From Gammaproteobacteria bacterium (GTDB taxonomy: Bacteria; Pseudomonadota; Gammaproteobacteria; Steroidobacterales; Steroidobacteraceae), in assembly GCA_004297335.1 (NCBI GenBank), contig SCUD01000175.1, forward strand, positions 62,001-126,000: a DNA stretch of 64,000 bases, given 5' to 3'. Positions 27,984 to 45,106 of this stretch are shown here, piece after piece. The first letter of the stretch is position 1, and the number at the start of each line of letters is the position of its first letter. A model generated the notes under the pieces. It did no database searches and had not been told where the DNA came from. It saw nothing but the letters and a program-made list of their open reading frames with translations. The position numbers and the translations under genes were made by a program.

Positions 27984-29012
27984 ATGCGCGCGGTGGTTGC
28001 GACGCTGGCGCTCGTGGCGGCAGCGCCCGCGCTGCCGCAGGACGACGCCGGCGCGGATCCCGCGGCGCGGCCCTCGATCATCGCGCCACTCGCCGCCCGT
28101 TCGTTGCTGCTCGACCTGGCGCGCGCCGGGGACCGCATCTTCGCAGTCGGCGAGCGCGGGCATGTGCTCTATTCCACCGATGCAGGTGCCAGCTGGACCC
28201 AGGTGCAGGTGCCGGGCAGCGCCAACCTGAATGCCGTGCACTTCGCCGATGCGCGGCATGGCTGCGCGGTCGGGCATGCCGGCATCATCCTCTGTACCTG
28301 GGACGGCGGGGAGCGCTGGGAACGCGCGCATTTCACGCCGGAGGACGGCCAGCCGCTGCTCGATGTCTGGCTCGCCGATGAAAAGCGCGGCGTCGCGGTC
28401 GGCGCCTACGGCACGGTGCTCACGACGATCGACGGCGGCCACAACTGGGCGTCCATGGTGTTCGAGCCGGCACCGTTGCCGGGTGCGGAACTGCCGCCGG
28501 TCGCGGAAGACGAGCTGGATGCAGGCGTCGACCTCGGCCTCGAGTTCCACCTCAATGCGCTCGCTGGGGGGCCGGGAGGCGCCCTGTACCTCGGCGCCGA
28601 GGCCGGCCGCATCTTCCGCTCGGACGACGCCGGTGCGAGCTGGCGCGAGCTGCCCTCGCCCTACGAGGGCTCGTTCCATGGGATCCTGCCGCTCGATGGC
28701 GAAGCACTGCTGGCCTTCGGGCTGCGCGGCCACCTGTTCCGGTCCGATGATGGCGGCACGAACTGGGTGCAGCTCGCGACCGGCACCGTGGCGCTGCTGA
28801 CTGCCGGTGCGCGGCTCGATCCAGCGACCGTTGTGATCTCGGGCATGACCGGCGTGCTGCTCATCAGCCGCGACGGCGGGCACAGCTTTGCGCTGACCCA
28901 GCAGGACAACCGCAAGGCGATCTCGGCGGTGCTGGCAGGCGCGGATGGAGCGCTGATCGTGGCCGGGGAGAGCGGCGTGCGCCGCCTGCCGCTGCCGGCG
29001 GTGGCACCATGA
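27984..29012 (+). CDS. YCF48/BNR-type beta-propeller exported protein
   Basis: A 342-residue protein with a short signal peptide (MRAVVATLALVAAAPALPQ). It is followed by repeated propeller blades with the Asp-box pattern: STDAGASW, TWDGGERW, TIDGGHNW, RSDDAGASW, RSDDGGTNW and SRDGGHSF. This is the YCF48-like fold named after the photosystem II assembly factor HCF136. In this operon context it is probably a periplasmic accessory to the exporter encoded next. Its TGA overlaps the exporter's ATG. Confidence 0.8.
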   Translation: MRAVVATLALVAAAPALPQDDAGADPAARPSIIAPLAARSLLLDLARAGDRIFAVGERGHVLYSTDAGASWTQVQVPGSANLNAVHFADARHGCAVGHAGIILCTWDGGERWERAHFTPEDGQPLLDVWLADEKRGVAVGAYGTVLTTIDGGHNWASMVFEPAPLPGAELPPVAEDELDAGVDLGLEFHLNALAGGPGGALYLGAEAGRIFRSDDAGASWRELPSPYEGSFHGILPLDGEALLAFGLRGHLFRSDDGGTNWVQLATGTVALLTAGARLDPATVVISGMTGVLLISRDGGHSFALTQQDNRKAISAVLAGADGALIVAGESGVRRLPLPAVAP

Positions 29013-31387
29013 AGGCCGGCGGCGAATCCGCGCTGGTCGCGCGGCTCGAGCCGCTCGTCTTCGGCCAGCGCCGGCTGATCCTCGTGTTGTTCGCGCTGGT
29101 GACCGCGGCGCTCGGCTGGCTCGCGGCCACCGGCCTGCGGCTCGATACCAATTTCACCAAGCAGTTGCCGCTGCAGCACGAGTACATCCGGACCTACCTC
29201 GACCACAAGGGTGACTTCGGCGGCGCCAACCGCGTGCTGATTGCGCTGATCGCCCGCGACGGCAACATGTTCACGCCGGAGTTCTTCGAGGCGCTCCGCA
29301 TCGCCACCGACGAGGTGTTCTTCATCAAGGGCGTCGACCGCGCCCGCGTGCAGTCGCTGTGGACGCCGAACACGCGCTACACCGAGGTGGTGGAGGGCGG
29401 CATCGAGGCCGGCGACGTGATCCCGTCCGATTTCACCGCGGATGCCGCCGGGCTGGCGCGGGTGCGCGAGAACATCCTGAAGGCCGGCATCGTCGGCCGC
29501 CTGGTCGCCAACGACTTCTCCGGCGCGATGGTCAGCGCGCAACTCCTTGACGCCGATCCTGAGACCGGCGCGCCGGTGGATTACATCGAGATCTCCCACG
29601 AGCTCGAGCGCAAGGTGCGCCAGCGACTCGAGGGTTCGAGCCTCGAGGTCGCGGTGCAGGTGCCGGTCTCGGTGCACATGATCGGCTTTGCCAAGGTCGT
29701 CGGCGCGGTCGCCGAGGGCGCGCTGTCAGTCATCACCTTCGCAATCGTCACGGTCGGGCTGACGCTGTTGTTCGTGTGGGTCTACATCCAGTCGTGGCGC
29801 ATCGCGCTGGTCCCCGTGGTGTGCTCGCTGACCGCGATGGTGTGGATGCTCGGGCTGCTGGTGGTGCTCGGCTACGGCGTCGATCCGCTCGGCATCCTCG
29901 TGCCCTTCATCATCTTCGCGATCGGCACCAGTCACGGTGTGCAGAAGATCAGCGCGGTCAGCGATGCGGCGCAGGCCGGGCTCGGTAGCGAGGAGGCCGC
30001 GCGGCGCGCGTTCCGGCTGCTGTTCCTGCCGGCGATCATCGCGCTGCTGTCCGACCTGGTCGGTTTTGTCACCATCCTGCTGATCCCGGTGCAGGTGATC
30101 CGCGAGATGGCGGTGACCGCGAGCCTCGGCGTCGCGGTGATCATCCTGACGGATCTCGTGCTGCTGCCGGTGCTGGTCTCCTACGTGCCGCTGACCGACC
30201 GCTACCGGGCGCGGGTCGCTCGGCGCCAGCAGCAGCTCGCGAGGGTCTGGGACGGGCTCGCGCGCATCACCGGGCGCGGGCCGTCGCTGGCGATCATCGC
30301 GGTTGCCGCCGTGATCGGCGTGGTTGGCTACCTCAAGGGCCGCGAGACGCCGATCGGCGACACCCAGGCCGGCGTGCCGGAGCTGCGCGCGGATTCGCGT
30401 TACAACCGCGACAGCAATTTGATCAGCGAACGCTTCTCGATCGGCACCGACATCATCAACGTGATCGTCGAGACCAGGGCGGACGGCTGCATCGACTACC
30501 GGATCATCGACGCGATCGACCGCTTCGCCTGGCACCTGGCCAACGTCGAGGGCGTGCGCGACGTCATGAGTCTTGCCGGTGTCTCCAAGGTCGTCAGCGC
30601 CGGCTGGAGCGAGGGCAGCCTGAAATGGCGCAGCCTGCCGCGCGACGAGCGCCAGCTGGTGCAGGCGCAGACCTACATCGAGACCAGCACGGGGCTGCTG
30701 AACCGCGACTGCAGCGTGATGCCGGTAATGGTGTTCCTCGCCGATCACCGGGCGGAGACGATCGAGCGAGTCGTCGCCGCGGTCAAGGACTACCGCGAGC
30801 GTGAGCCGACCGAGGGCGTCACCTACCGGCTCGCGACCGGCAACGTCGGCGTCATGGCGGCGCAGAACGAGGAGGTCGAGGCCAAGGAGTTCCAGATCCT
30901 CGGCTGGCTGTTCGCCGCGATCGTGGTGATGTGCCTGGTGAACTTCCGCTCGCTCGCCGGTACCTTCATCGTCATCGTGCCGCTCGCGCTCGGTTCGCTG
31001 CTGGTGTACACGGTGATGGCCGTGGTCGGCATCGGGCTCAAGGTCAACACGCTGCCGATGGTCGCACTCGGCGCTGGCATCGCGGTGGACTACGGCATCT
31101 ACCTGTTCAGCCGCATGCAGGAATTCCTGCGCCGCGGCGACTCGCTGCACGATGCCTATCGGGGCGCACTGCGCGTGACCGGCGCCGCGGTCGTGTTCAC
31201 CGGCATCACGCTCTCGATCGGCGTGGCCACCTGGGCGTTCTCGCCGCTGAAGTTCCAGGCCGACGTCGGGATCATGCTTACCTGTATGTTCCTGGTGAAC
31301 ATGCTCGGCGCGATGCTGCTGTTGCCGGCGCTGGGGGTGTGGGTGTTGCGGGAGGGGAGCAAGGCTGGAGGGGCTGGGGAGGGGTAG
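29009..31387 (+). CDS. MMPL/RND-superfamily exporter
   Basis: A 792-residue inner-membrane protein with about twelve helices in two halves, each with a large periplasmic loop. It belongs to the COG1033/MMPL branch of RND transporters. Motifs include LDTNFTKQLPLQHEYIRTY, FIIFAIGTSHGVQKI and, in the second half, ALGAGIAVDYGIYLFSRMQEF. It is proton-driven in the known family members, which move lipids or hopanoids. It is coupled by ATGA overlap to the YCF48 gene and ends the operon. The last codons are unusually G-rich and mark the edge of conserved core DNA. Confidence 0.85.
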   Translation: MKAGGESALVARLEPLVFGQRRLILVLFALVTAALGWLAATGLRLDTNFTKQLPLQHEYIRTYLDHKGDFGGANRVLIALIARDGNMFTPEFFEALRIATDEVFFIKGVDRARVQSLWTPNTRYTEVVEGGIEAGDVIPSDFTADAAGLARVRENILKAGIVGRLVANDFSGAMVSAQLLDADPETGAPVDYIEISHELERKVRQRLEGSSLEVAVQVPVSVHMIGFAKVVGAVAEGALSVITFAIVTVGLTLLFVWVYIQSWRIALVPVVCSLTAMVWMLGLLVVLGYGVDPLGILVPFIIFAIGTSHGVQKISAVSDAAQAGLGSEEAARRAFRLLFLPAIIALLSDLVGFVTILLIPVQVIREMAVTASLGVAVIILTDLVLLPVLVSYVPLTDRYRARVARRQQQLARVWDGLARITGRGPSLAIIAVAAVIGVVGYLKGRETPIGDTQAGVPELRADSRYNRDSNLISERFSIGTDIINVIVETRADGCIDYRIIDAIDRFAWHLANVEGVRDVMSLAGVSKVVSAGWSEGSLKWRSLPRDERQLVQAQTYIETSTGLLNRDCSVMPVMVFLADHRAETIERVVAAVKDYREREPTEGVTYRLATGNVGVMAAQNEEVEAKEFQILGWLFAAIVVMCLVNFRSLAGTFIVIVPLALGSLLVYTVMAVVGIGLKVNTLPMVALGAGIAVDYGIYLFSRMQEFLRRGDSLHDAYRGALRVTGAAVVFTGITLSIGVATWAFSPLKFQADVGIMLTCMFLVNMLGAMLLLPALGVWVLREGSKAGGAGEG

Positions 31388-31742
31388 GAGGGGCGAGGGT
31401 GCCCTGTGCCGGATCGCCGGATGAGGCCAGAATCGCTGTGCCCCGGCGGGGGCCAGGTCAGGAGGGGGCGGTGGCCATGGTAGTCCAGAGTTCGCGGGAT
31501 TCACTGCTGGCGGGCGCGTTCGGCGCATTTGCTCAGACGCTGCAACCGGGCCTGTCCGCGGACGTTCGTGCGCAGCGTCTTCGGTTTCGGCGTGTCGGTC
31601 AACTTGGCGGGCGGGACCCGCGGGTTATTCGACACGGATCATCGCAACTGCAAGTATTGCAGGGGTTTCGCGCTGGCCGATATCTGATCGTCCGACGGGT
31701 TCGGCTGGAAATTCACCGAGAGTTGTCGGCCCCAATTAGTAG
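31388..31742. other. Non-coding stretch before the gene cassette, nothing recognised
   Basis: About 355 bases between the exporter and the start of the gene cassette. The first 60 bases are purine-rich (GGAGGGG repeats). No convincing ORF, integrase gene remnant or tRNA was found on either strand. The last bases, CCCCAATTAGTAGTTGGG (31726-31745), form a short hairpin CCCAA/TTGGG. The terminal AG^TT at 31741-31744 is where the cassette would have been inserted. Confidence 0.5.
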
Positions 31743-32619
31743 TTGGGCGTCAGGCAGGAGGTTGTAGTGGATTGGTCGACGCTTATCGACAGCAAAGCGG
31801 CAATATCCGTGCTATCGGCTGCGGGCGGTGCACTTCTTGCCAACCTGCTCATGTTACTGCGCGGCCGAATTCGGGTGCTCGAATACACGGCTTTGCATAA
31901 TCAGATTGGTTCCTCCGGTAACGACCCCGTATTTGGTCAAGTTACGGTCGCTTGGCAGGGGCATTCAGTATCAAATCTATTTTCATCTGTGGTTTCGCTC
32001 AGCAACGATACGACGAAAGATCTATCGTGTCTGCGCGTCAAGATATACACAGGAAACGAAACCTTGCTGCTAAACGAAAGCACTGAGATCGTAGGAACCA
32101 CTCAGATCGTAAAATGGAAGGAATCTTTCAGTAATCTCTTACACGTACCAGAGAATAGTGCTCCTACCCAAGCTCAATTCGAAACATATCACCACAATCG
32201 TGAGTACATGATTCCGGTTTTAAATCGCGGGCAAACGGCCGTCTTCCGATATCTCACGACGGTTACTTCAGCTCCGGGTAGTCCTTCAGTTTGGACAGAG
32301 GTGCAGCAGCTCGGCTTAAAGGCGCTGTATGTTCCGCAGGTTCCAGTTGTTCACGGTGCGCCGCAACGTTATGCGGTGTGGCTTGGTCTATTTGCCGCAC
32401 TCGCATCGGTTGTTGCAGCCACGCTGCTACTTAGCAGTCTCTGGTTGGCCGCGCTAATTTGCTGCGTGGTAGGTCTCTTTGCACAAGGCATCGGCGCGAT
32501 TCTGTTTAGATTTGCGAGAGCTATGAAAAGGTTAGTGCTGCATTGACGCCCAACAAATCGCTCCAGCCGACGTCGGTCTCGTCGCTTCGCTCCTCGCCCG
32601 CCGCGGCTGAGCTCAAACG
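31743..32619 (+). mobile_element. Integron-type gene cassette (one ORF plus its attC)
   Basis: The segment starts TTGGGC and ends at the G of the attC cleavage site GTTAAGC (32619). In an excised circular cassette the joined end would read GTTGGGC. That is the exact complement of the GCCCAAC (R'' box) of its own attC at 32548-32554, which is the diagnostic pairing for a true cassette boundary. Base composition of the cassette is clearly lower in GC than the flanks. No intI gene is present in the window, so it may be at a secondary site or in a cluster of attC sites without integrase. Confidence 0.7.
31767..32546 (+). CDS. Cassette-encoded membrane protein of unknown function
   Basis: A 259-residue product from a GTG with a strong AGGAGG site five bases upstream. 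It has one hydrophobic segment near the N-terminus (about residues 10-28, AAGGALLANLLMLL region) and two at the C-terminus (about 208-250, YAVWLGLFAALASVVAATLLL and LAALICCVVGLFAQGIGAILF). A soluble, beta-rich middle of about 170 residues lies between. Codon use is markedly AT-richer than in core genes. The topology resembles that of some cell-envelope sensors, but I recognise no family. It is the only gene of the cassette; its TGA lies just before the attC. Confidence 0.65.
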   Translation: MDWSTLIDSKAAISVLSAAGGALLANLLMLLRGRIRVLEYTALHNQIGSSGNDPVFGQVTVAWQGHSVSNLFSSVVSLSNDTTKDLSCLRVKIYTGNETLLLNESTEIVGTTQIVKWKESFSNLLHVPENSAPTQAQFETYHHNREYMIPVLNRGQTAVFRYLTTVTSAPGSPSVWTEVQQLGLKALYVPQVPVVHGAPQRYAVWLGLFAALASVVAATLLLSSLWLAALICCVVGLFAQGIGAILFRFARAMKRLVLH

Positions 32620-32625
32620 TTAAGC
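32548..32625 (+). other. attC: Integron attC recombination site (59-be type)
   Basis: A 78-base site. The R'' box is GCCCAAC (32548-32554) and the R' box is GTTAAGC (32619-32625), both fitting RYYYAAC and GTTRRRY. The L arms are GCTC-C-AGCCG (32560-32569) and CGGCTGAGC (32604-32612), which pair over nine bases with one extrahelical C, as required for recognition of the folded bottom strand. The centre is a GC-rich variable hairpin. The position directly after the ORF is canonical. Confidence 0.8.
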
Positions 32626-32633
32626 AACGCACT

Positions 32634-33191
32634 ATGCGCGCTCCGCGAGTAAATCGTGGCCTACCGGAAATGGTGGATCGACTTGAAGCGCAGCTCAGAT
32701 TGGTCAACGAGTTCGCGAAGCGAGCGTTTGGCGCGGGGGAGGAAGACTTTCTCGCACAAGTCGCTTGCGGACTTCGCATCTTACTCGTGCGATCGCGCAT
32801 GAATAGCCCCTTGCTATTTGAGATCGCTGAACGGCTCGGATGCGTACCTATGGCGACGCTTGACGGGCCTCCAATTCGCCGGCGACACGGCGAACCAGGT
32901 CCGGGTGACCAGCTCACTTTGGATGAGTTCTTTGACCGCCAGGCCGTTGGAATTCGAACTGCTGCCGGATTCGTTACCCTGACAAAGCGCCAGCTAATAC
33001 GGGCTTGGTGCGAACAACTCGGTGGTGCCCATGAAGATTGGGCTGTTGAGGAGTCGCTCGCAAATGCGGTGAACATGCAATTGCCGATTGCAGAGTTACG
33101 TCCGACGGTAATGGAACTTCAGAATTGCACCGACACGGCCTTGGCCCACGGTTGGAAGGTACTTGAGCTGGCGCGCCAAAGCAATCCTTAG
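32634..33191 (+). CDS. Hypothetical protein after the attC, possible second cassette gene
   Basis: A 185-residue soluble protein (MRAPRVNRGLPEMVDRLEAQ...). Its ATG is 9 bases after the attC, the usual place for the next cassette's gene. The first 60 residues look helical (RLEAQLRLVNEFAKRAFGAG, EEDFLAQVACGLRILLVRSR), with an aromatic/charged C-terminal half. I do not recognise the family. A second ATG at 32670 is possible. No attC closes it on the right: I looked for a GCTTAAC-like box between 33191 and 33306 and found none, so the cassette end may have been lost when the restriction operon arrived. Confidence 0.55.
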   Translation: MRAPRVNRGLPEMVDRLEAQLRLVNEFAKRAFGAGEEDFLAQVACGLRILLVRSRMNSPLLFEIAERLGCVPMATLDGPPIRRRHGEPGPGDQLTLDEFFDRQAVGIRTAAGFVTLTKRQLIRAWCEQLGGAHEDWAVEESLANAVNMQLPIAELRPTVMELQNCTDTALAHGWKVLELARQSNP

Positions 33192-33306
33192 AGGGCTGCG
33201 TGGCCGAATCACCCGACCCGAGCGCGCCGTTCCGTTCATATGGGTGAGTGTGCGCGTCATGCAGATGGCACTCGGCAAGTGAGACAGCCGCAATGAAGGT
33301 TTGCTA

Positions 33307-35781
33307 ATGGCCCTGAAGAAATCCCAGCTCTACTCCTCCCTCTGGCAGTCCTGCGACGAGCTGCGCGGCGGCATGGATGCCTCGCAGTACAAGGACTACG
33401 TCTTGACGCTGCTCTTCATGAAGTACGTGTCAGACAAGGCCGCCGGCGCCAAGCGCTCGCTGATCGAGGTTCCGGCGGGCGCGGGCTTTGCCGACATGGT
33501 GGCGCTCAAGGGCGATAAGGAGATCGGCGACAAGATCAACAAGATCATCGCCAGGCTGGCTGCGGCCAACGATCTAAAGGGCGTGATTGACCAAGCCGAC
33601 TTCAACGACGAGAGCAGGCTCGGTTCGGGCAAGGAGATGCAGGACCGGCTGTCGAAGCTGGTGGCGATCTTCGACGGCCTCGACTTTCGCGCCAACCGGG
33701 CCGAGGGCGATGACCTGCTGGGCGACGCCTATGAGTACCTGATGCGCCACTTTGCCACCGAGAGTGGCAAGAGCAAGGGTCAGTTTTACACGCCGGCCGA
33801 AGTCTCCCGGATCATGGCGCAGGTCATTGGCATCGAGCGCGCCGGTGAGCTGCGGGAACCGACCGTCTACGACCCGACCTGCGGCTCCGGCTCGCTGCTC
33901 ATCAAGGCGGCGGACGAGGCCGGAACGTCGAAACTCGCCATTTACGGCCAGGAGATGGACGTTGCGACCTGGGCGCTGGCGCGCATGAACATGATCCTGC
34001 ATGGCCATCCCACCGCCGAGCTGTGGCGCGGAAATACGCTGTCCGCTCCGCACTTCAAGAACAAGAGCGGCAGCCTGAGGACCTTCGATTTTGCCGTCGC
34101 CAATCCGCCCTTTTCGGCCAAGGCCTGGTCGAGCGGTCTGGACCCGGCCCACGACGAATTTGGGCGCTTCGAGCTCGGCGTGCCGCCGACCAGGAATGGC
34201 GACTACGCCTTCCTGCTGCACCTGATCGCCTCGCTCAAGAGCACCGGCAAGGGCGCGATCATCCTGCCCCACGGCGTGCTGTTCCGCGGCCACAAGGAGG
34301 CTGACATCCGCCGGCAACTGGTTCAGCGGGGCGTGATCAATGGCATCATCGGCCTGCCGGCCAACCTGTTTTACGGCACCGGCATCCCGGCCTGCATCGT
34401 GGTGATCGACAAGGAGCACGCCCACGCCCGCACCGGCATCTTCATGATCGATGCCAGCCGCGGCTTTCTTAAGGACGGCAACAAGAACCGTCTGCGCAGC
34501 CAGGACCTCCACAAGATCGTGGATGTGTTCAACCGCCAGATCGAGCTGCCGCGCTACTCGCGCATGGTTTCGGTGGCCGAGGTCGCGAGCCCGGCCAACG
34601 ACTACAACCTGAACCTCCCACGCTACATCGACTCGAGCGAGCCCGAGGACCTGCACGACCTCGACGCACACCTGAACGGCGGCATCCCGGTCCGCGACGT
34701 CGACGCCCTGGGCGATTACTGGCGTGTCTTCCCGACGCTGCGCCAGGTGCTTTTCAAGAAGGGCAGCCGCGCGGGCTACCTCGGGCCATGTGTTCCTGCA
34801 AACGAGCTGAAGCAGACCGTCCTCGGCCACGCTGAGTTTCAGGCTTTCGCCGAGCGGGTGGTGGTCATATTCGAGGGCTGGCGCGCCGCGCACGAGCCCG
34901 CACTCCGAGGCATCGAGGTGAACGACCTTCCCCGCGAGCTCGTCTACACTCTGTCCGAGGACCTGCTCGCGCGCTTCGCCGACCTGCCGCTTCTGAGTCG
35001 CTACGACGTCTACCAGCGGCTCATGGACTACTGGGCGGAGGTGATGCAGGACGACGTCTATCTCATCGCCGCCGACGGGTGGCAAGACGCCGCCCGGCCG
35101 CGCGGCATCGTCGAGGACAAGGCGCGCAACATCAAGGAGACGCCCGACCTCACCATCAATCGCAAGAAGTACAAAATGGACCTGCTGCCGCCCGCACTCA
35201 TCGTGGCGCGCTTCTTCGCCGAGGAACAGGCCGCCATCGAGGCCCTGCAGGCGAAGCAGGAGACCGCCGCCCGCGAGCTGGAGGAGTTCGTCGAGGAGCA
35301 CAGCGGCGAGGAAGGGCTCCTCGCCGAGGCGGTGAACGATAAGGGCAAGGTCACCAAGGGTGGCGTCAGGGACCGGCTACAGGCCCTCGCCGATGAGATG
35401 GCCAATGCCGGGGACGATGCCGAGGATGCCGAGGCCGAGCGCGACGCTCTCACCCGCTGCCTCGCACTGATCGACGCGGAGTCCGCGGCAGCGAAGGTCG
35501 TCAATGAGGCCGAAGGTGCGCTCGACGAGAAGGTATTGGCCCGCTACACGAGGCTCACTGAGGACGAGATCAAGGTGGTGGTTGTCGAGGACAAGTGGCT
35601 TGCCAGCTTGGGCGCCGCCATTGACGGCGAGGTGCAGCGAATGAGCCAGCAACTCGCGGGGCGCGTCATGGACCTGGAGAAGTGCTACGCCCAGCCGCTG
35701 CCGGCGCTGGAGCGCGAGGTCGAGGCGTTCAGCGCCAAGGTTGAGGGGCACCTGAAGAAGATGGGACTGGCGTGGGGATGA
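33307..35781 (+). CDS. hsdM: Type I restriction-modification DNA methyltransferase subunit
   Basis: An 824-residue N6-adenine methyltransferase subunit. The N-terminal HsdM helical domain (about 1-130) begins ALKKSQLYSSLWQSCDELRG. The catalytic domain has motif I DPTCGSGSLL (189-198) and motif IV NPPF (266-269). The last 350 residues, beyond the usual HsdM length of about 500-550, are a long C-terminal extension rich in charged helices (about 640-824). With HsdS it methylates one adenine on each strand of a bipartite site. The ATG at 33307 has AAGG eight bases upstream. Its TGA overlaps the hsdS ATG (ATGA). Confidence 0.9.
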   Translation: MALKKSQLYSSLWQSCDELRGGMDASQYKDYVLTLLFMKYVSDKAAGAKRSLIEVPAGAGFADMVALKGDKEIGDKINKIIARLAAANDLKGVIDQADFNDESRLGSGKEMQDRLSKLVAIFDGLDFRANRAEGDDLLGDAYEYLMRHFATESGKSKGQFYTPAEVSRIMAQVIGIERAGELREPTVYDPTCGSGSLLIKAADEAGTSKLAIYGQEMDVATWALARMNMILHGHPTAELWRGNTLSAPHFKNKSGSLRTFDFAVANPPFSAKAWSSGLDPAHDEFGRFELGVPPTRNGDYAFLLHLIASLKSTGKGAIILPHGVLFRGHKEADIRRQLVQRGVINGIIGLPANLFYGTGIPACIVVIDKEHAHARTGIFMIDASRGFLKDGNKNRLRSQDLHKIVDVFNRQIELPRYSRMVSVAEVASPANDYNLNLPRYIDSSEPEDLHDLDAHLNGGIPVRDVDALGDYWRVFPTLRQVLFKKGSRAGYLGPCVPANELKQTVLGHAEFQAFAERVVVIFEGWRAAHEPALRGIEVNDLPRELVYTLSEDLLARFADLPLLSRYDVYQRLMDYWAEVMQDDVYLIAADGWQDAARPRGIVEDKARNIKETPDLTINRKKYKMDLLPPALIVARFFAEEQAAIEALQAKQETAARELEEFVEEHSGEEGLLAEAVNDKGKVTKGGVRDRLQALADEMANAGDDAEDAEAERDALTRCLALIDAESAAAKVVNEAEGALDEKVLARYTRLTEDEIKVVVVEDKWLASLGAAIDGEVQRMSQQLAGRVMDLEKCYAQPLPALEREVEAFSAKVEGHLKKMGLAWG

Positions 35782-37088
35782 GCAGCGAAGCGATGCAGGT
35801 CAGGGATGCAGGGCCGGGCTTTGGCGCGGGTGGCGACGCGCAGGAGGTGCCAGCGGGCTACAAGCGGACCGAGTTGGGGGTGGTTCCCGACGAGTGGGAG
35901 ACGTGCCAACTTAGTTCCCTCGGATCAGGGAGTATCCTGCCAATTAAGGCTGGACCCTTCGGATCGTCACTGACCAAGGCTACCTACGTGCCAGATGGGT
36001 ACAAGGTATACGGGCAGGAACAAGTTATCCGTGGTGATCACTTGTACGGCGACTACTACATCACGCGCAAGAAGTACCTGGAGCTTGAAAGCTGTGCAGT
36101 TCGCGCGGGTGATATTCTTATAAGTCTTGTGGGCACTGCTGGCAAGCTTCTCGTTGTCCCTGATGGTGCTCCTCCTGGCATCATCAATCCTCGGTTGATT
36201 CGCTTCTCATTCGACCGGTCGCGTGTCAATGCGCGCTTCTTTCAGTTCTTGTTCGAGTCAGAGCAAGTCCAGGACAGACTTGCGCGGCAGGCGCAAGGCG
36301 GGACGATGGGCGTGCTCAACGCGGGGAACCTTCGCCCTTTCCGCGTTCAAATGCCCCGTCCCCGCGAACAACGCGCCATCGCCGAGGCGTTGTCGGATGT
36401 GGATGGGTTGCTCGGGGCGTTGGAGGTGCTGATCGCCAAGAAGCGGGCCATCAAGCAAGCCGCCATGCAGCAACTGCTCACCGGCAAGACCCGCCTGCCG
36501 GGCTTCAGCGGGGAGTGGGAGACGAAGCGGTTGTCCGAAGATGTAACCCTGCTTTCCGGACATCACGTCATGGCTCGGGACTGCAACTCGCGAGGCGTCG
36601 GCATCCCGTACCTTACTGGCCCCGCAGACTTTCCATGCAGGCGAATACAGCAAACCAAGTTCACTGTAAGGCCGACCACGCTGTGCAGGCAGGGTGACAT
36701 CCTCGTGACGGTGAAAGGGTCAGGCTCTGGGACGCTGATTGAAGCGGATCGTGAGTACTGCATCAGCAGGCAACTGATGGCGATTCGGACATCTTTCTGG
36801 AATTCGAGATTCCTTTTCTGCTGTCTCCTTCAGAACGCCTCTAGCATTGTCGCCGCATCGACGGGCCTTATTCCAGGATTGTCACGCGGTGATATCCTTG
36901 AGCAGGAGTTGCCGATCCCTCCTGACCCATCGGAACAGGATGCTATCGCCACCGTCATTTCCGACATGGACTCCGAGATCGCCGCCCTCGAAGCCCGCCG
37001 CGACAAGACCCGCGCGATCAAGCAGGGCATGATGCAGCAGCTTCTCACCGGCCGTGTGCGGCTGGTGAAGCCGGAGGCGGCGGCGTGA
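35778..37088 (+). CDS. hsdS: Type I restriction-modification specificity subunit
   Basis: A 436-residue subunit with two target-recognition domains (about 25-195 and 245-405). Each is followed by a similar helical conserved region: AIKQAAMQQLLTGKTRLPGF centrally and AIKQGMMQQLLTGRVRL at the C-terminus. The start overlaps the hsdM stop and the stop overlaps the next gene's GTG, so synthesis is tightly coupled. The two halves determine the two parts of the target sequence, which cannot be read from here. The internal conserved repeats are the usual sites of half-subunit exchange. Confidence 0.88.
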   Translation: MSSEAMQVRDAGPGFGAGGDAQEVPAGYKRTELGVVPDEWETCQLSSLGSGSILPIKAGPFGSSLTKATYVPDGYKVYGQEQVIRGDHLYGDYYITRKKYLELESCAVRAGDILISLVGTAGKLLVVPDGAPPGIINPRLIRFSFDRSRVNARFFQFLFESEQVQDRLARQAQGGTMGVLNAGNLRPFRVQMPRPREQRAIAEALSDVDGLLGALEVLIAKKRAIKQAAMQQLLTGKTRLPGFSGEWETKRLSEDVTLLSGHHVMARDCNSRGVGIPYLTGPADFPCRRIQQTKFTVRPTTLCRQGDILVTVKGSGSGTLIEADREYCISRQLMAIRTSFWNSRFLFCCLLQNASSIVAASTGLIPGLSRGDILEQELPIPPDPSEQDAIATVISDMDSEIAALEARRDKTRAIKQGMMQQLLTGRVRLVKPEAAA

Positions 37089-38458
37089 TCGAAGACCAGC
37101 ACACCGAGTGGAAGTCGTCCTGGCGCGACGAATGCCTGAAATGGCTATGCGGCTTTGCCAACGCGCAGGGCGGCGTGCTGGAGATCGGCCGCGACGACAA
37201 TGGAAAGGTTGTCGGCGTGAAGGATGCGAGGCGGCTGCTGGAGGAACTCCCCAACAAATTGCGCGACGTGCTCGGTATCGTCGCCGAGATCGACTTGCTC
37301 GAAGAGGGCGGCAAGCCCTACCTCCGGATCGCGGTCGAGCCGTACCCGGTGCCGATCAGCTATCGAGGCGAGTACCACTACCGCAGCGGTAGCACGAAGC
37401 AGGTGTTGAAGGGCGCCGCCCTCGATCGCTTCCTGCTCCGTAGGACCGGCCGGCGCTGGGATGGCGTGCCGGTGCCGGGCGTGACGACCGCCGATCTCGA
37501 TTCTGCCGCGCTGGCACGCTTTCGCAGGCGTGCGGCTCGCAGCAAGCGTTTGGAGGCGGAGGCTCTGGATGACGACGATGCGGCACTGCTCGAGAAGCTC
37601 CGCTTGACGGAGGGGCGCTACCTGAAGCGCGCCGCCGTCCTGCTGTTCCACCCGGAGCCGGAGCGCTTCGTGACCGGTGCGTCGGTCAAGATCGGCTACT
37701 TCGCGAGCGAGTCGGATCTCCGGTACCACGACCAGATCGCCGGCGACGTGTTCTCGCAGCCCGGCAGAGCATTGGATCTCCTGCTGACGAAGTACCTGAA
37801 GGCCGGGATCAGTTACGAAGGCATCCAGCGCATTGAGAGCTACCCGATGCCGGAAAGCGCCCTGCGCGAGGTGCTGCTCAACGCTGTGATCCATCGCGAC
37901 TACGCCGTTGCCGCGCCGATCCAGATCCGGGTGTACGCGGATCGTCTGCTGATCTGGAACCCCGGCGAGCTGCCCGAGGGCTGGTCGATGGAGACGCTCC
38001 TGGGGCAGCACCCTTCGCAGCCGTTCAATCCGGACCTGGCCAACACGTTCTTCTGGGCCGGCGACATCGAAGCCTGGGGGCGCGGCATCCAGCGTATCCT
38101 CGGAGCCTGCCGCGCGGCGGGCACGCCGGAGCCGCGAATCCGGGTCGAGGGGCGAAACGTGTGGGTCGAGTTTCCGTTCTCCGAGGCCTACCTGGACAGC
38201 CTCGCTTCCGGGGAAGAACCCATCGGGGTTCCGGGGCAGACTACCCAAGAAACTACCCAAGAAACTACCCAAGAACGGATACTCGCCCTGCTGCGAGAGG
38301 AGCCCACGGTCACTCGCAAAGCGATGGCGGAGCGAATCGGAATCACGGCTGACGGGATCAAGTATCACCTCGGCCAACTTCGCGCCGCCGGTCGGATCCG
38401 CCACATCGGTCCCACGAAGAAAGGCCGCTGGGAGATCCTGGGGGTAGCCGATGAGTAG
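37085..38458 (+). CDS. AlbA/Schlafen-domain protein with C-terminal winged helix, inside the R-M operon
   Basis: A 457-residue protein. Residues about 1-115 form a Schlafen AlbA_2-type domain (EDQHTEWKSSWRDECLKWLCG, FANAQGGVLEIGRDDNGKVVG). The middle has a GHKL-ATPase-like region (PMPESALREVLLNAVIHRDY, DRLLIWNPGELPEG). The C-terminus (about 400-457) is a winged helix, ILALLREEPTVTRKAMAERIGITADGI, preceded by three tandem TTQE units (12-base repeats). Proteins of this architecture are called RecG-like or putative transcriptional regulators and often sit in type I R-M operons. GTG at 37085 overlaps the hsdS stop. Its role in restriction control is inferred. Confidence 0.75.
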   Translation: MIEDQHTEWKSSWRDECLKWLCGFANAQGGVLEIGRDDNGKVVGVKDARRLLEELPNKLRDVLGIVAEIDLLEEGGKPYLRIAVEPYPVPISYRGEYHYRSGSTKQVLKGAALDRFLLRRTGRRWDGVPVPGVTTADLDSAALARFRRRAARSKRLEAEALDDDDAALLEKLRLTEGRYLKRAAVLLFHPEPERFVTGASVKIGYFASESDLRYHDQIAGDVFSQPGRALDLLLTKYLKAGISYEGIQRIESYPMPESALREVLLNAVIHRDYAVAAPIQIRVYADRLLIWNPGELPEGWSMETLLGQHPSQPFNPDLANTFFWAGDIEAWGRGIQRILGACRAAGTPEPRIRVEGRNVWVEFPFSEAYLDSLASGEEPIGVPGQTTQETTQETTQERILALLREEPTVTRKAMAERIGITADGIKYHLGQLRAAGRIRHIGPTKKGRWEILGVADE

Positions 38459-41400
38459 CGTCGGCCAGCGCGAGATCCGGACCCAGCAGCGCGTGATCGC
38501 GTTCCTGCGCGATGCGCTCGGCTACGCCTACCTCGGCCATTGGAAGGACCGCGACGGCAACAGCAACATCGAGGAGGACCAGCTCACGGACTGGCTCCGG
38601 CGCCAGGGGCGCGACGAGAAGCTGATCAACCGGGCGCTTTTCGAGCTGGACAAGGCCGCGGCGCTCGGCGGCAGCAGGACCCTCTACGACGCGAACCGTG
38701 AGGTCTACGGCCTGCTGCGCTACGGGGTGAAGGTCCGCCCCGAGGTCGGTGAGCAGACGGTCACGGTCTGGCTGATCGACTGGGCGCACCCGGACAAGAA
38801 CGACTTCGCCGTTGCCGAGGAGGTGACGGTTTATGGGGTCCACACGAAGCGGCCCGATCTCGTGCTCTATGCGAACGGCATCGCCCTGGGCGTGCTGGAG
38901 CTGAAGCGCTCCACCGTGGCCGTGAGCGAGGGGATCCGCCAGAGCCTCGACAGCCAGAAGAAGGAGTTCATCCGCCCCTTCCACACCACCGTACAACTCC
39001 TGATGGCGGGCAACGAGACCGAGGGGCTGCGCTACGGCGTGATCGAGACGCCGGAAAAGTATTGGCTGCGCTGGAAAGAGGCCGAGGCGCATCCGGAGGC
39101 CGGGGACAACCCGCTGCTGCGGGAGCTGGGCCAGCTCTGCGGCAAGGAGCGGCTGCTCGAGATCGTCCACGATTTCATGGTCTTCGACGCTGGCATCAAG
39201 AAGACCTGCCGCCAGAACCAGTACTTCGGCGTTCGCGCGGCCCAGGCGCGGGTGCGAGCGCGCGAGGGCGGCATCCTCTGGCACACCCAGGGCAGCGGCA
39301 AGAGCTTGATCATGGTGTGGCTCGCCAAGTGGATCCGCGAGCACGTGCGGGACTCACGGGTGCTGATCATCACCGACCGCACCGAGCTGGACGAGCAGAT
39401 TGAGACGGTGTTCAAGGGCGTCAGTGAAGACATCCACCGCACGAACAGCGGCGCGGATCTGGTGCGGGTGCTGAATGCGAGCGAGGAGTGGTTGATCGGC
39501 TCGCTCGTCCACAAGTTCGGTGCCTCGGAGGAAGGCGACATCGACGCCTTCCTGCAGGACATCCAGAGCCACCTGCCGAAGGGTTTCCGTGCCAAGGGCG
39601 AGATCTTCGTCTTCGTGGACGAGTGCCACCGCACCCAGTCGGGCAAGCTGCACGAGGCGATGAAGGCGCTGGTGCCGGGCGCGATGCTGATCGGCTTCAC
39701 CGGCACGCCGCTGCTCAAGAGCGACAAGCGCCGCTCGATCGAGACCTTCGGCCCCTACATCCACACCTACAAGTACGACGAGGCCGTTCGTGACGGCGTG
39801 GTGCTGGACCTGCGCTACGAAGCGCGGGACATCGACCAGAGCATCACCTCGCAGGCCAGGGTAGACCAGTGGTTCGAGCTGAAGACCCAGGGGCTCACCG
39901 CCGTTGCGAGAGCCCAGCTCAAGCAGCGCTGGGGGACGATGCAGAAGGTGCTGTCCGCGCGCGACCGGCTGGAGAAGATCGTCGCCGATATCCTCCTGGA
40001 CATGGAGACCCGCGACCGGCTCAGGAGCGGGCACGGTAACGCGCTGCTGATCTCGGACAGCATCTACTCGGCCTGCCGCTTCTTCGAGATGTTCCAGCAG
40101 ACGGACCTTGCCGGGAAGTGCGCCATCGTCACCTCCTACCGGCCGCAGCCTGCCGACATCAAGGGCGAGGACAGCGGCGAAGGGCTGACCGAACGCCTCC
40201 GGCAGTACGAGATCTACCGGAAAATGCTCGCCGCGCACTTCGACGAGCGCGAAGAGACGGCGATGTACAAGGTGGAGCAGTTTGAGCAGGAGGTGAAGAA
40301 GCGCTTCATCGGCCAGCCCGGGCAGATGAAACTCCTGATCGTCGTGGACAAGCTGCTCACCGGGTTCGACGCGCCGCCGGCCACCTACCTGTACATCGAC
40401 AAGAAAATGCAGGACCACGGCCTGTTCCAGGCCATCTGCCGGGTGAACCGGCTGGATGGGGAGGACAAGGAGTACGGCTACATCGTCGACTACAAGGACC
40501 TGTTCCGGTCGCTCGAGCAGTCCATCCAGGATTACACGGGCGAGGCCTTCGCCGGCTACGACAGGGAGGATGTCGACGGCCTGCTGAAGGACCGGCTCGG
40601 GCAGGGTCGCGAGCGGTTGGAGGAGGCGCGGGAGGCGGTGAAGGCGCTCTGCGAGCCGGTCAAGCCGCCGCGCGACACGACCGCCTTCCTGCAGTATTTC
40701 TGTGCCGCCGAGAGTGGCAAGGCCGAGCAGCTCCAGGAGAACGAGCCGAGGCGGGTCGCGCTCTACAAGCTGGTGGCTGCGTACCTGCGCGCCTACGCCA
40801 ACCTCGCCAACGAGATGCGCGAGGCCGGCTACACCAACGCCGAGGTGGAGGCGATCAAGGGCGAGGTCGACCACTACGAGAAGGTCCGCCAGGAGGTCAA
40901 GCTCGCCAGCGGCGACTACGTCGATATGAAGATGTTCGAGCCGGCGATGCGTCATCTGCTCGACACCTATATCCGCGCGGAGGAGAGCGAGAAGGTCTCG
41001 GCCTTCGACGACCTGACGCTGGTGGAACTGATCGTCGAGCGCGGGGAAGCCGCGGTGGAGGCGCTGCCCGGAGGTCTCCGCAAGAATCGGGAGGCGATGG
41101 CCGAGACGATCGAGAACAACGTACGCCGGCTCATCATCGACGAAATGGCCGTCAACCCGAAGTATTACGAGAAGATGTCCGAGCTGCTCGACGCGCTGAT
41201 CGAGCAGCGCCGGCAGGAGGCTCTCGACTACAAGGCTTATCTGAGAAGGATCGTGGAGCTGACCCGCCAGGTGAGCAGGCCGGAGAGCGAGGCGACTTAC
41301 CCCGCTGGAATCAACACCGGAGCGCTCCGGGCGCTGTACGACAATCTGGAGCAGCGCATGGCATCGTCGGTCCGCGAAACGCCGCCGCGCTACGGTGAGG

Positions 41401-41594
41401 GCGGCGCTGCCTGCGCCCGCGAGGATCTGGCGCTCACCCTGGATCGCGCCATCCGCGCCGTGAAGAAGGCGGACTGGCGCGGCAACCGGTTCAAGGAACG
41501 CGAAGTCCGCAACGCCATCCGTGCCGAAATCGGCGACGACGACGCGCTCGTCGATCAGGTCTTCGGGATTGTGAAGGCCCAGCGTGAGTACTGA
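38451..41594 (+). CDS. hsdR: Type I restriction endonuclease subunit
   Basis: A 1047-residue motor/nuclease subunit. The N-terminal nuclease has the pattern D136...E150-L-K152 (RPDLVLYANGIALGVLELK). The SF2 helicase has Walker A QGSGKS (280-285), FVDECHRTQSGK (motif II region), FTGTPLLKSDKR (motif III) and VDKLLTGFDAP with ICRVNRLDG (motifs V and VI). The C-terminal helical region (about 760-1047) would bind the HsdM/S core. The ATG lies eight bases inside the end of the preceding gene, and the stop overlaps the next gene. It translocates and cuts DNA unmethylated at the HsdS target. Confidence 0.9.
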   Translation: MSSVGQREIRTQQRVIAFLRDALGYAYLGHWKDRDGNSNIEEDQLTDWLRRQGRDEKLINRALFELDKAAALGGSRTLYDANREVYGLLRYGVKVRPEVGEQTVTVWLIDWAHPDKNDFAVAEEVTVYGVHTKRPDLVLYANGIALGVLELKRSTVAVSEGIRQSLDSQKKEFIRPFHTTVQLLMAGNETEGLRYGVIETPEKYWLRWKEAEAHPEAGDNPLLRELGQLCGKERLLEIVHDFMVFDAGIKKTCRQNQYFGVRAAQARVRAREGGILWHTQGSGKSLIMVWLAKWIREHVRDSRVLIITDRTELDEQIETVFKGVSEDIHRTNSGADLVRVLNASEEWLIGSLVHKFGASEEGDIDAFLQDIQSHLPKGFRAKGEIFVFVDECHRTQSGKLHEAMKALVPGAMLIGFTGTPLLKSDKRRSIETFGPYIHTYKYDEAVRDGVVLDLRYEARDIDQSITSQARVDQWFELKTQGLTAVARAQLKQRWGTMQKVLSARDRLEKIVADILLDMETRDRLRSGHGNALLISDSIYSACRFFEMFQQTDLAGKCAIVTSYRPQPADIKGEDSGEGLTERLRQYEIYRKMLAAHFDEREETAMYKVEQFEQEVKKRFIGQPGQMKLLIVVDKLLTGFDAPPATYLYIDKKMQDHGLFQAICRVNRLDGEDKEYGYIVDYKDLFRSLEQSIQDYTGEAFAGYDREDVDGLLKDRLGQGRERLEEAREAVKALCEPVKPPRDTTAFLQYFCAAESGKAEQLQENEPRRVALYKLVAAYLRAYANLANEMREAGYTNAEVEAIKGEVDHYEKVRQEVKLASGDYVDMKMFEPAMRHLLDTYIRAEESEKVSAFDDLTLVELIVERGEAAVEALPGGLRKNREAMAETIENNVRRLIIDEMAVNPKYYEKMSELLDALIEQRRQEALDYKAYLRRIVELTRQVSRPESEATYPAGINTGALRALYDNLEQRMASSVRETPPRYGEGGAACAREDLALTLDRAIRAVKKADWRGNRFKEREVRNAIRAEIGDDDALVDQVFGIVKAQREY

Positions 41595-42312
41595 CCCACA
41601 CCATATCGAGGTCGCCGGCATCGGGGTCGAGGTCGTCCGCAAGGAGATCAAGAACCTCCATGTGGGCGTCTACCCGCCTGCGGGTCGGGTCCGGGTGGCG
41701 GCGCCCCTGCGTCTTGACGATGAAGCCGTCCGGCTCGCCGTGGTCTCGCACCTCGCGTGGATCCGCCGTAAGCAGAAGGAGTTCGAGGGTCAGGATCGAC
41801 AGTCACAACGGGACATGGTGAGCGGCGAGAGCCACTACTTCCAGGGGCGCCGCCTTCGGCTGGCAGTGAAGGAACGTGGCGGAATACCCGGAGTGGGTCT
41901 TCTCGGCCATACAACGCTGGAGCTTCGGGTGCCGCCTGCCTTCGACCGAGTGCAGCGGGACGCGGTTTTGCAGCGCTGGTACCGGCGCCAGCTTCGGGCG
42001 CTGCTCCCGCCGCTGCTCGCAAAATGGGAGCCGAGGGTGGGGAAGACAATCGCAGAGGTGCGGATCAAGGGGATGAAGACACGCTGGGGAAGCTGCAATG
42101 CCGATGCCGGGCGAATCTGGCTGAACCTCGAGCTGATCAAGAAGCCGGTCGCGTGTGTGGAATACGTGCTGGTCCACGAGATGGTGCACCTGCTCGAACG
42201 CCATCACACCGAGCGATTTCAGGAGTGCATGGAGCGGCTGATGCCGAACTGGCGCCTGCACCGAGAGGAGCTGAACCGCGCGCCGTTGGCGCACGAGGAG
42301 TGGAAGTACTGA
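41584..42312 (+). CDS. YgjP-like metal-dependent hydrolase (DUF45)
   Basis: A 242-residue protein of the YgjP/WLM metallopeptidase-like family. The zinc motif is HEMVHLLERHH (H198 and H202), preceded by MKTRWGSCNADAGRIWLNLEL, both family signatures. GTG at 41584 overlaps the hsdR end by 11 bases. DUF45 genes recur directly downstream of hsdR in many type I systems, but a proteolytic role has not been shown there. It ends the five-gene operon. Confidence 0.82.
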   Translation: MSTDPHHIEVAGIGVEVVRKEIKNLHVGVYPPAGRVRVAAPLRLDDEAVRLAVVSHLAWIRRKQKEFEGQDRQSQRDMVSGESHYFQGRRLRLAVKERGGIPGVGLLGHTTLELRVPPAFDRVQRDAVLQRWYRRQLRALLPPLLAKWEPRVGKTIAEVRIKGMKTRWGSCNADAGRIWLNLELIKKPVACVEYVLVHEMVHLLERHHTERFQECMERLMPNWRLHREELNRAPLAHEEWKY

Positions 42313-42681
42313 TACCGGGGCTCTGCATAACCACCGGTTGCGGCGGAGGGTTCGCGGCGCGGCCCGCCATCGAGGAGGCCATGGTCAACGCGGTCGACTA
42401 CAGTTCCACGGCTCCGTGTGCATGGAGGACCTGCGCGCGATGGCGAACAACGGCTCGCCGCCTGCCGGTCCACGAGCGGGCGGAGCGGAGCACCCCTCAA
42501 GTCACCCCCCATGTACCCCCCATGTGCAACTGCTACCGGCCTTGGTGGCCGGCAAGGCTAAGGTATAAAGTTCGAATCGATGTTCCCGATCGCACGCACG
42601 CGCTCAACGAGCCGTCGGTGGTGGAGTTCTTGACCAACTACGAGGGCCGCCTCGCCGGTACCCGCCGGCACTGGGTCGCTG
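42313..42681. other. Scrap region after the R-M operon, no intact gene
   Basis: About 370 bases with no convincing gene. It holds an 11-base unit (A, six C, ATGT) repeated twice in tandem at 42504-42525. There is also a hairpin CCGGCC/GGCCGG at 42536-42552 that lacks a T-run. A short frame ending at 42692 (...VVEFLTNYEGRLAGTRRHWVADES) looks coding in its last 25 codons and overlaps the next start. It may be the 3' end of a lost gene. Confidence 0.4.
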
Positions 42682-42861
42682 ATGAATCCTGAGTTGCGCC
42701 GATACCTCGACTTGGAGCAGGCGATGCTCGCGCTGGATGCTCACGGCAACCCAGAAGCGGATCTGGTTCGAGACATCATGGATGGTGCGTGGAGTTTGTC
42801 TGCCTGCGGCAGCGTGAACTGGTCCCGGTGCCATTCGGTTTGGAGACCGCCGAGGCCGTGA
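42682..42861 (+). pseudogene. Truncated small ORF fused to oxidoreductase DNA
   Basis: The first 34 codons (MNPELRRYLDLEQAMLALDA and on to ...VRDIMD, ending 42783) read like a small acidic helical protein of a conserved hypothetical type. From 42784 the frame runs out of phase into the oxidoreductase remnant and stops at 42859. The junction marks a deletion that removed the 3' end of this ORF and the 5' end of the next gene. Confidence 0.4.
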
Positions 42862-43568
42862 GCCTCGTACTGAACTACATCACCGCGTACCAGATGCTGC
42901 ATCGTTCCGCTAAGGTCAAACCGGGCCAGCGCGTGTTGGTTCACGGCGCGTCAGGCGGGGTTGGCACGGCACTATTGCAGCTTGGGCGCCTCGCTGGGCT
43001 CGAGATGTACGGTACGTGTTCAGCGCGAGGCGCCTCGGCTGTTTCCGATCTCGGCGGCATCGCGATTGATTACCAGCATCAGGACTTTGTGGAGGAAATT
43101 CATCGCCTCACGGGCGAGGGCGTGGACGCCGTCTTCGACCCCATCGGGGGTACACATCTCTGGGATTCCCGCAAGGCCCTCCGTCCTGGCGGCAGGGTGG
43201 TGGGCTACGGCCTTATTACCTCGATACGTGGGGAAGGATTGACTTCAGGTCGACCGGGTCGTCGTCAACGCTTTCGTGGAACCACCATCTTCGGGCTTTA
43301 CATCGCTGGCGGCTGGCTCCTACCGGGCCGCAAACGCGTGATCCCTTACAGCATCCAGACGCTCAAACGGCTGAAACCGGAATGGTTTCGCCAGGATCTG
43401 ATTGCCCTATTTGACCTCCTCCAACAGAAGAAGATCAAGCCGCTTATCGCGCAGCGATTTCCTCTTGCCGAGGCGCGACACGCGCACGAGTTGCTCGGGA
43501 AGGGAGGCGTGATCGGCAAGTTCGTGCTCGCACTTAACGGGCCCTCCCATGAATTACGAGCGGCATAA
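42789..43568 (+). pseudogene. Medium-chain oxidoreductase lacking its N-terminal domain
   Basis: The 259 readable codons encode the Rossmann half and C-terminus of a quinone-oxidoreductase-like MDR protein. The NADP loop is VLVHGASGGVGTALLQL, followed by VDAVFDPIGG and RKALRPGGRVVGYG. The family has about 330-340 residues; the N-terminal GroES-like catalytic domain of roughly 80 residues is missing. The frame opens only at a GTG just after a junction with unrelated sequence at about 42783. A product could still be made but would lack the active site. The stop lies inside an attC-like sequence. Confidence 0.75.
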
Positions 43569-43608
43569 CAGCATGCAGCGGACGGCGCTGCGCGCCGCTG
43601 CTGATGCT
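43563..43608 (+). other. Degenerate attC-like hairpin
   Basis: GCATAAC (43563-43569) resembles an R'' box and contains the upstream gene's stop, as is usual for cassettes. AGCATGCAGCGG (43570-43581) pairs with CCGCTGCTGATGCT (43595-43608) with two extra bases on the 3' arm, over a GC-rich inner stem GGCGC/GCGCC. A proper GTTRRRY R' box is absent; GGTCTGG follows instead. It is probably a decayed attC. Confidence 0.5.
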
Positions 43609-43660
43609 GGACGGTCTGGGTCTCGTCCAGCAGGGTCTCGTCCAGCACTTGCGTGTGCTC

Positions 43661-43682
43661 GAGTGATACTATAGTATCACTC
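43661..43682. promoter_or_regulatory. Perfect 22-bp palindrome, likely YefM operator over the promoter
   Basis: GAGTGATACTA followed by its exact complement forms a perfect 22-base palindrome ending one base before the antitoxin ATG. It contains a TATAGT (43670-43675) that can serve as a -10 box, with TTGCGT (43649-43654) 15 bases upstream. Antitoxins of the Phd/YefM type repress their own promoters by binding such palindromes. The mRNA would be nearly leaderless. Confidence 0.65.
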
Positions 43683-43683
43683 C

Positions 43684-43941
43684 ATGCGTACCGAACTCGT
43701 AACGACCCTCAAGCGCCAGGCCACGGAATTGCTGTCCGAGCTTGAGCGAGACCGCGAGCCGATATTGATCACGCAGCACGGCGTGCCGAGCGCATATTTG
43801 GTCGATGTCGAGACCTACGAGTCATTGCAGCGCCGCATGAGCCTGCTCGAAGGTATCGCTCGCGGGGAACGGGCAATTGTGGAGGGTCGGACCGTCTCCC
43901 ATGCTGAGGCTAAGCGGCGCATGGGCCGATGGCTGAAGTAA
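43684..43941 (+). CDS. Type II antitoxin, Phd/YefM family
   Basis: An 85-residue antitoxin. The N-terminal Phd/YefM DNA-binding fold shows TLKRQATELLSELERDREPI and LITQHGVPSAYLVDVETYES, followed by a C-terminal toxin-binding helix (LEGIARGERAIVEGRTVSHAE). No ribosome site precedes the ATG, consistent with a nearly leaderless transcript. The gene overlaps the toxin start by 13 bases. The pair stabilises the surrounding mobile DNA. Confidence 0.85.
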   Translation: MRTELVTTLKRQATELLSELERDREPILITQHGVPSAYLVDVETYESLQRRMSLLEGIARGERAIVEGRTVSHAEAKRRMGRWLK

Positions 43942-44246
43942 TCTGGACTGAGCCTGCCCTTAGTGACCTCGATGCCATTGCGGATTACATCGCCCTCGAC
44001 AATCCCGATGCGGCCCGCAGCTTGGTGCAACGCGTGTTTCAGCACGTTGACCAACTCATTGAACACCCGCGTAGTGGCTCTAAACCGCTCGAGCTACGGG
44101 GATGGCGGTACCGGCAGATCGTCGAGCCCCCCTGTCGCGTCTTTTATCGGGAAGACTCGAATCAAGTCTTTATTCTCTACGTGACGCGTGCCGGACAGCT
44201 ACTGCGGCCAAGCACACTTCGATCGCGAGACAAGGGCGAGACCTGA
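43929..44246 (+). CDS. Type II toxin, RelE/ParE family
   Basis: A 105-residue toxin of the RelE/ParE superfamily. Typical sequence: VIWTEPALSDLDAIADYIAL, DNPDAARSLVQRVF, HPRSGSKPLELRGWRYRQIV and YREDSNQVFILYVTRAGQLL. ParE-type members poison gyrase and RelE-type members cut mRNA; the 'PALSDLDAIADYIA' start favours the ParE side, but the target is not certain. It is coupled to the antitoxin by overlap. Confidence 0.83.
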   Translation: MAEVIWTEPALSDLDAIADYIALDNPDAARSLVQRVFQHVDQLIEHPRSGSKPLELRGWRYRQIVEPPCRVFYREDSNQVFILYVTRAGQLLRPSTLRSRDKGET

Positions 44247-44357
44247 CTCTGCGATGCAACGGTCGTTACGCGTCGTCACGCCGCTTGTGCACGATTTCGC
44301 GCTTGGGGACCGGCCGATTTCCTGAGTTCGGTACCACCTTGGATTTCTTGCGCTCAG

Positions 44358-44386
44358 TTGCTAGGTATGACAAACTATCATACTAT
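44358..44386 (+). promoter_or_regulatory. Promoter of the RHH-PemK pair with dyad in the spacer
   Basis: TTGCTA (44358-44363) and TACTAT (44381-44386) lie 17 bases apart. Between them TATGA (44366-44370) and TCATA (44378-44382) form an inverted repeat that overlaps the -10 box, a likely binding site for the ribbon-helix-helix antitoxin. The ATG follows at 44398. Confidence 0.6.
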
Positions 44387-44397
44387 GGGGGTGCCCT

Positions 44398-44640
44398 ATG
44401 AGCAGCACTAAAGTCGCCATCACCATCGACAGCGGAACGCTGGAGCGCGTTGATGGCTTGGTCGCAAGAAAGGTCTTTCCCAACCGCAGCCGTGCCATCC
44501 AGGTGGCCGTTGCCGAGAAGCTCGCGCGGATGGAGCGCGGCCGTTTGGCGACCGAATGCGCAAAGCTTGATCCCAAATTCGAAAGGGCGCTGGCTGAAGA
44601 AGGCTTGGGGCAGGAACTCGACGCTTGGCCCGAATACTGA
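44398..44640 (+). CDS. Ribbon-helix-helix antitoxin (MazE/PemI-like role)
   Basis: An 80-residue protein beginning with an RHH fold: [20 protein letters not shown] is the strand and first helix, [18 protein letters not shown] the second. The C-terminal tail ([16 protein letters not shown]) is acidic and would wrap the toxin. A GGGGG run sits just upstream of the ATG. It overlaps the toxin start by 16 bases. Confidence 0.8.
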
Positions 44641-44963: not shown

Positions 44964-45038
44964 CCGCCGCATCGACCTCGAGCGCTTCGCGGCGGTTCTG
45001 CGGGACGTTGATATGAGTTTCGAACCTGTGAATTAATC

Positions 45039-45083: not shown

Positions 45084-45106
45084 CGCTCTTGCTAAGGAGT
45101 GAAGTC

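Follow-up and report, generated by a model that had tools for sequence, protein, structure and literature searches.

A CALIN is a cluster of attC sites without an integron integrase; the default threshold is two attC sites, and a CALIN with a single attC can be a true positive (IntegronFinder 2.0, available part of PMC9024848). In Xanthomonas integrons, as given in the available part of PMC12444791, the integrase gene (intI) lies mostly downstream of ilvD and is lost via frameshifts, stops or large deletions, and cassettes remain; the insertion of cassettes at secondary sites is also known from this source. According to the available part of PMC2426708, about one third of intI genes are pseudogenes and more than one intI is found in 20% of integron-bearing bacteria. 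Some genomes pair an intI pseudogene with a functional gene, the duplicates being nearly identical (same part of PMC2426708).

The window is the whole stretch of DNA that was analysed (64 kb, from a gammaproteobacterium). It includes a site that is, with a probability of roughly 0.8, what is left of a decayed chromosomal integron at its intI-proximal end, with one cassette still intact. The following elements were found at this site: an attI, a mutated and truncated 5′ piece of a divergent intI, and one complete cassette with its attC. A decayed integron end is a well-described kind of structure; this genome also has intact integrase genes. PMC2426708, used for comparison here, is Nemergut et al. 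2008.

The site resembles a CALIN, as defined in the available part of PMC9024848, in having an attC without a functional integrase nearby (the full intI genes are on other contigs). It differs in having one attC, under the default of at least two, and in retaining attI and an intI fragment. Like the integrons described in the available part of PMC12444791, it has an inactivated intI and a retained cassette. The remnant lies beside an MMPL gene in an island, however, and not downstream of ilvD, and full intI genes are found elsewhere in the genome besides. The pairing of an intI pseudogene with an intact intI in one genome likewise resembles pairs described in the available part of PMC2426708, except that the two copies have diverged (78% identity over the shared stretch) and that the pseudogene keeps its 5′ end only.

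The attC site (32548-32625, plus strand) has the R″ box GCCCAAC, the R′ box GTTAAGC, and L arms of nine base pairs with a single extrahelical base on the L″ side. A rule-based scan of the 64 kb on both strands found exactly one attC, this one; when three mononucleotide shuffles of the window were scanned on one strand each, they gave one match in total. The site scored 45.4 bits with a covariance model from whose training it had been held out (E = 1.2e-9 over 119.5 kb and 3.8e-8 genome-wide; both E-values are rough). It is the sole match of this model in the window and ranks fourth among the 10 matches found in the genome at E <= 0.1, the weakest of which has 24.6 bits. GTTGGGC, the 5′ end of the cassette with the preceding G, is the exact reverse complement of the R″ box of the same cassette. 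The complete cassette is therefore 31743-32619 (plus strand, 877 bp); the homology to another attI copy breaks at the same base. The cassette is genuine and carries one ORF, oriented as its attC. The preliminary description, made from the letters of the sequence, had given the same attC, with its R boxes, nine-base L arms and extrahelical base, and the same 877 bases delimited by the R″ complement; both are borne out. It had left the site to the judgement of a covariance model; the score supports an attC and the contrary outcome did not occur.

Of 38 attC candidates gathered from the intI-adjoining loci of relatives, 28 were aligned, and the covariance model was built from these 28. Seven candidates of L091, two of L092 and one of L094 were left out, as were both 130-bp sites of L097; the attC of L083 was called on both strands, and the minus strand was used. 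In the 28-row alignment, 96.0% of cells were paired in the intended hairpin versus 80.8% in shuffles, and 60 cells were changed on both sides versus 17.0. One relative (G015, locus L091) has 19 sites of 88 bp, the arms of which are much like those of the window attC. A pattern search of the genome with GCCYAACN{35,65}GTTRRGC gave two matches (the window attC and C123:16752). The reversed-pattern control gave 22, so this pattern was uninformative and the covariance model was used instead. As a DNA query in its own genome, the attC matched itself and eight short stretches (best E = 0.002). No Rfam match up to E = 1 was found in 31300-33400, and a promoter and terminator scan of 31300-33350 gave no site.

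The DNA to the left of the cassette is related to an integron of the same genome. By blastn, window positions 31416-31748 match the reverse complement of C103:114-447 at 78% (259 of 334 columns, one gap). This part of contig C103 comprises the beginning of a full-length intI and the attI-bearing region upstream of it; the matching stretch of the window reaches up to and across the cassette junction. The first 54 residues of the C103 IntI are matched by tblastn at 31635-31474 with 59% identity (E = 5e-13, from a small search). The intI fragment (31416-31635, minus strand) corresponds to about 73 of 335 codons, the remainder of the gene being missing, and is interrupted by an in-frame stop and a frameshift. 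Its mismatches with C103 are about evenly spread over the three codon positions (20, 15 and 19 of 63, 62 and 63), whereas in 8 of 8 comparisons of C103 with the relatives' intact intI genes, over the corresponding part of the gene, the third position has the most mismatches. The fragment has therefore drifted as a pseudogene.

The attI region (31604-31748, plus strand; these limits mark the extent of the comparison rather than a mapped site) agrees with that of C103 in 125 of 145 columns. The cassette crossover lies between 31742 and 31743 (TTAGTAG^TTGGGC). The motif TTAGTAG^TTRGGC precedes intI in L058 and L060 (no mismatch) and in L062 (one mismatch), as it does in C103. In most other intI loci of relatives it was not detected with up to two mismatches allowed, and it is thus specific to this attI type. 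Ahead of the crossover, the two attI copies are identical at 52 of 60 bases; they differ at one of the six R-box bases and share 11 of 60 bases past the R box. This is the pattern expected if a single attI is followed by a different first cassette in each copy. DNA of the attI region was found in 1 of 59 genomes (that of the window, in two places) and in none of the relatives. As in a complete integron, attI stands at the start of the array, but the functional intI beside it is lacking. The cassette therefore does not occupy a secondary site flanked by core genes, as had been proposed in the preliminary description: its left flank is attI with an intI fragment, and its right flank is island DNA. 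The statement that no intI is present in the window applies to an intact gene; 31416-31635 (minus strand) is the 5′ part of one.

Downstream, the R′ box (32619-32625) is the expected start of a next cassette. The stretch that begins there (32620-33191, plus strand) is probably a second cassette, cut off on its right side, whose attC is lost. It contains one ORF (ORF2, 32634-33191, 185 aa, GC3 of 0.57). The expected R″ box, GCTTAAC, is absent from the window save as the reverse complement of the R′ box itself, and no second attC was found in the window by the covariance model. No homologue of ORF2 was found in the order (1 of 396 genomes, its own), nor any viral relative.

The integron remnant forms the left boundary of an island of 18 kb (31388-49365), which lies between the MMPL gene (29009-31387) and a gene with an RF-1 domain by Pfam (49366-49785), taken here to be arfB. 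In two genomes of the same genus (G002 and G005), MMPL adjoins arfB directly, without the island; their homology to the window stops at 31345/31348 and restarts at 49448/49454. The distance between the two genes is about 1 kb in G025, about 8 kb in G029, and several kb in G015 and G019. The gap is therefore variable. arfB was not found in the examined MMPL stretch of G016. No attC-model match and no intI match was found in the MMPL loci of seven relatives. The preliminary description had expected relatives without the insert to show an empty AGTT site; G002 and G005 do lack the insert, but the empty site does not apply, the whole island being missing.

The island contains a type I restriction-modification locus (33307-41594, plus strand; hsdM, hsdS, AlbA_2/ATPase gene, hsdR; Pfam). 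Many small genes lie in its tail (43929-49336): toxins of ParE-like and PemK-like type, DUF924, an AbiEi/AbiEii pair and DUF488 (Pfam). No attC match was found in this tail by the covariance model. In the gap of G029 (L099:6168-13635), type IV pilus-like genes are recognized by eye, with prepilin-like starts and a 1533-aa ORF; the MMPL-arfB gap is therefore a place for different genes.

The genome is a draft assembly (3.96 Mb, 187 contigs, 97.6% complete, 1.8% contamination). The genome-wide search for intI proposed earlier gave two full genes above the TIGR02249 cut-off, on contigs C103 and C121. Besides the contig of the window, attC-model matches (E <= 0.1) are found on C122, C127, C83, C9, C94 and C10. 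No further attC was found within 20 kb to the left of the window, nor in the 9.35 kb between the window and the right end of its contig. C103 carries the sole trmD found in the genome and is therefore probably not contamination. Its IntI has matches at E <= 1e-70 in 41 of 148 genomes, own genome included. The contig ends inside its first cassette, so the array of C103 is unreadable. rplS, trmD, MMPL and the neighbours of the C121 gene are unmatched in 44 loci around the intI genes of relatives (L054-L097, some of which overlap), and no ancestral integron position could therefore be shown. The small contig C122 (L121) has four attC-model matches with small ORFs in between; its far end resembles an insertion-sequence ATPase gene, by eye only.

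The following history is proposed. The integron would formerly have been located between MMPL and arfB. Its integrase would have captured a circular cassette by recombination between the cassette's attC and attI, the crossover being at 31742/31743. Afterwards, the bulk of intI would have been deleted as far as the MMPL gene, and the remainder would have mutated. The attC of the next cassette would have been lost as the distal array was cut, perhaps on the arrival of further island genes, the type I restriction-modification locus among them. The intI fragment could alternatively have arrived as a piece along with the island. No strain with an intact integron at the MMPL-arfB position was found. 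The cassette no longer has an integrase in cis; the related intact IntI of C103 could still act on it in trans.

Several points stand against a decayed integron: no strain with the intact form was found, the attI-region DNA was found in no relative, the MMPL loci of seven relatives gave no attC or intI match, the fragment could have come in with the island, a single attC is left, its bottom-strand fold is unexceptional, and the assembly is a draft of 187 contigs. A lone site with no fold advantage over shuffles is also what a chance resemblance without any true attC would give. The bottom strand has a z of -0.82, 37 of 200 shuffles fold equally well or better, and the R boxes are unpaired in the minimum-energy fold; this is taken as a weak test where attC hairpins are imperfect. 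Chance is hardly credible against 45.4 bits from a model that never saw this attC, a cassette 5′ end that is the exact complement of R″, and an attI found exactly at the predicted junction. The preliminary description had left two options. The remains of a larger array without integrase agree with the attI and the intI fragment at the junction. The same two features go against the other option, insertion of a lone cassette at an attG-type, secondary site of the chromosome. A single complete cassette with a single attC, and the lack of an intact intI in the window, would fit such an insertion, but the comparison of the attI copies contradicts it. Ordinary chromosomal flanks that rejoin in relatives are not seen either, since the entire island is missing there. 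A secondary-site insertion is thus very improbable.

The window attI may also be a second docking site: the truncation of intI would be old, and the cassette would have been placed there later, in trans, by the integrase of C103. An intact related IntI is indeed present in the genome, and the attI side is nearer to C103 (125 of 145 columns) than the pseudogene part is (134 of 190). The attI side is, however, slightly more alike than the gene start also in seven of eight comparisons involving four relatives with attI and intI, so the contrast may reflect just gene decay and alignment gaps. Placement in this order is considered unlikely. Little credence is given to the wider proposal that one integrase would serve two docking sites, the window attI, without its own intI, being kept as an outpost fed in trans from C103, and that the membrane protein of the cassette, next to the type I restriction-modification locus, would be defence-linked. 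The decayed integron end is preferred to these readings. Under it, a lone attC can be explained by searching for a short intI fragment and a copy of attI, which go unreported in a whole-gene family search. Since this genome has integron parts of one type in both intact and decayed form, integron decay, or the supply of an orphan attI in trans, could be tested in it.

The cassette ORF (31767-32546, plus strand, GTG start) encodes a protein of 259 aa. Its predicted build is an N-terminal helix, a beta-rich middle and a C-terminal helical hairpin. GC3 is 0.50, versus 0.93 for the neighbouring MMPL gene. The protein belongs to no Pfam family above cut-off; CyanoTRADDas_TM and SLATT_4, weakly matched by its C-terminal helices, are below cut-off and were not retained. 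PADLOC gave no match for the cassette ORF or ORF2. The predicted structure has a mean pLDDT of 57. Foldseek gave 11 matches (E <= 0.001) to beta-sandwich proteins with query TM-scores of 0.24-0.33, from which no function was drawn.

This cassette-borne membrane-protein family occurs across several groups of Pseudomonadota. Relatives with about 30-35% identity are encoded at nine other loci: in G223, G124, G844 and G774, and in five named records besides that of G223 (Rhodocyclaceae, two Nitrosomonas, Hydrogenophilales, Methylomonas methanica). With its own genome included, the protein was found in 3 of 396 genomes of the order, 1 of 369 of the class and 3 of 398 of the phylum. A first scan of contigs gave no locus, and a second, based on a three-row alignment, gave six. 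The G223 locus is part of L131; L106 is the same locus as L131, and the two were counted as one. No match was found in plasmid records for either cassette protein or for the L133 homologue.

An attC match lies directly 3′ of the gene in four of the nine loci (L131, L133, L128, L137). None was found after the gene in the other five (L107/L120, L129, L130, L132, L138); the sequence of L129 covers just 346 bases beyond the gene. In G844 (L137), the gene adjoins a divergent intI, 51% identical to the C103 IntI over 324 residues. On these sequence comparisons, the family also occurs as integron cargo outside this genome, in one case next to a near-complete intI. TTAGCG is found shortly before the gene in all six loci of the contig scan, preceded by G in five and by C in L132, and resembles the 5′ end of a cassette. 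The available sequence around L128-L133, G223 and G124 gave no intI-like match (best E 0.28).

At L133:4950-5837 (Methylomonas methanica) and L128:4950-5810 (Rhodocyclaceae), the homologue looks like a cassette standing alone between other genes; each has an attC match and no intI-like match within 10.7 kb, and both may be true secondary-site insertions. L130:4850-5720, L132:4940-5800 and L129:4940-5800 have TTAGCG before the start codon and no recognisable attC after the gene. These three may be cassettes that lost their attC and became fixed.

In the window, G223 and G124 (3 of 10 loci, own included), a single ORF separates the family gene from an hsdM downstream of it in the same direction. 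hsdM was not found at the remaining seven loci with three HsdM queries (2.4 to 10.7 kb per locus). The HsdM of the window shares 25-29% identity with the HsdM proteins of G223 and G124, which share 44-46% with each other. The association with hsdM is suggestive only. In G223 (L106:1486-3744), where the contig stretch examined gave no intI-like match, two cassettes with attC sites lead straight on to hsdM, the first gene of this kind in a type I restriction-modification locus.
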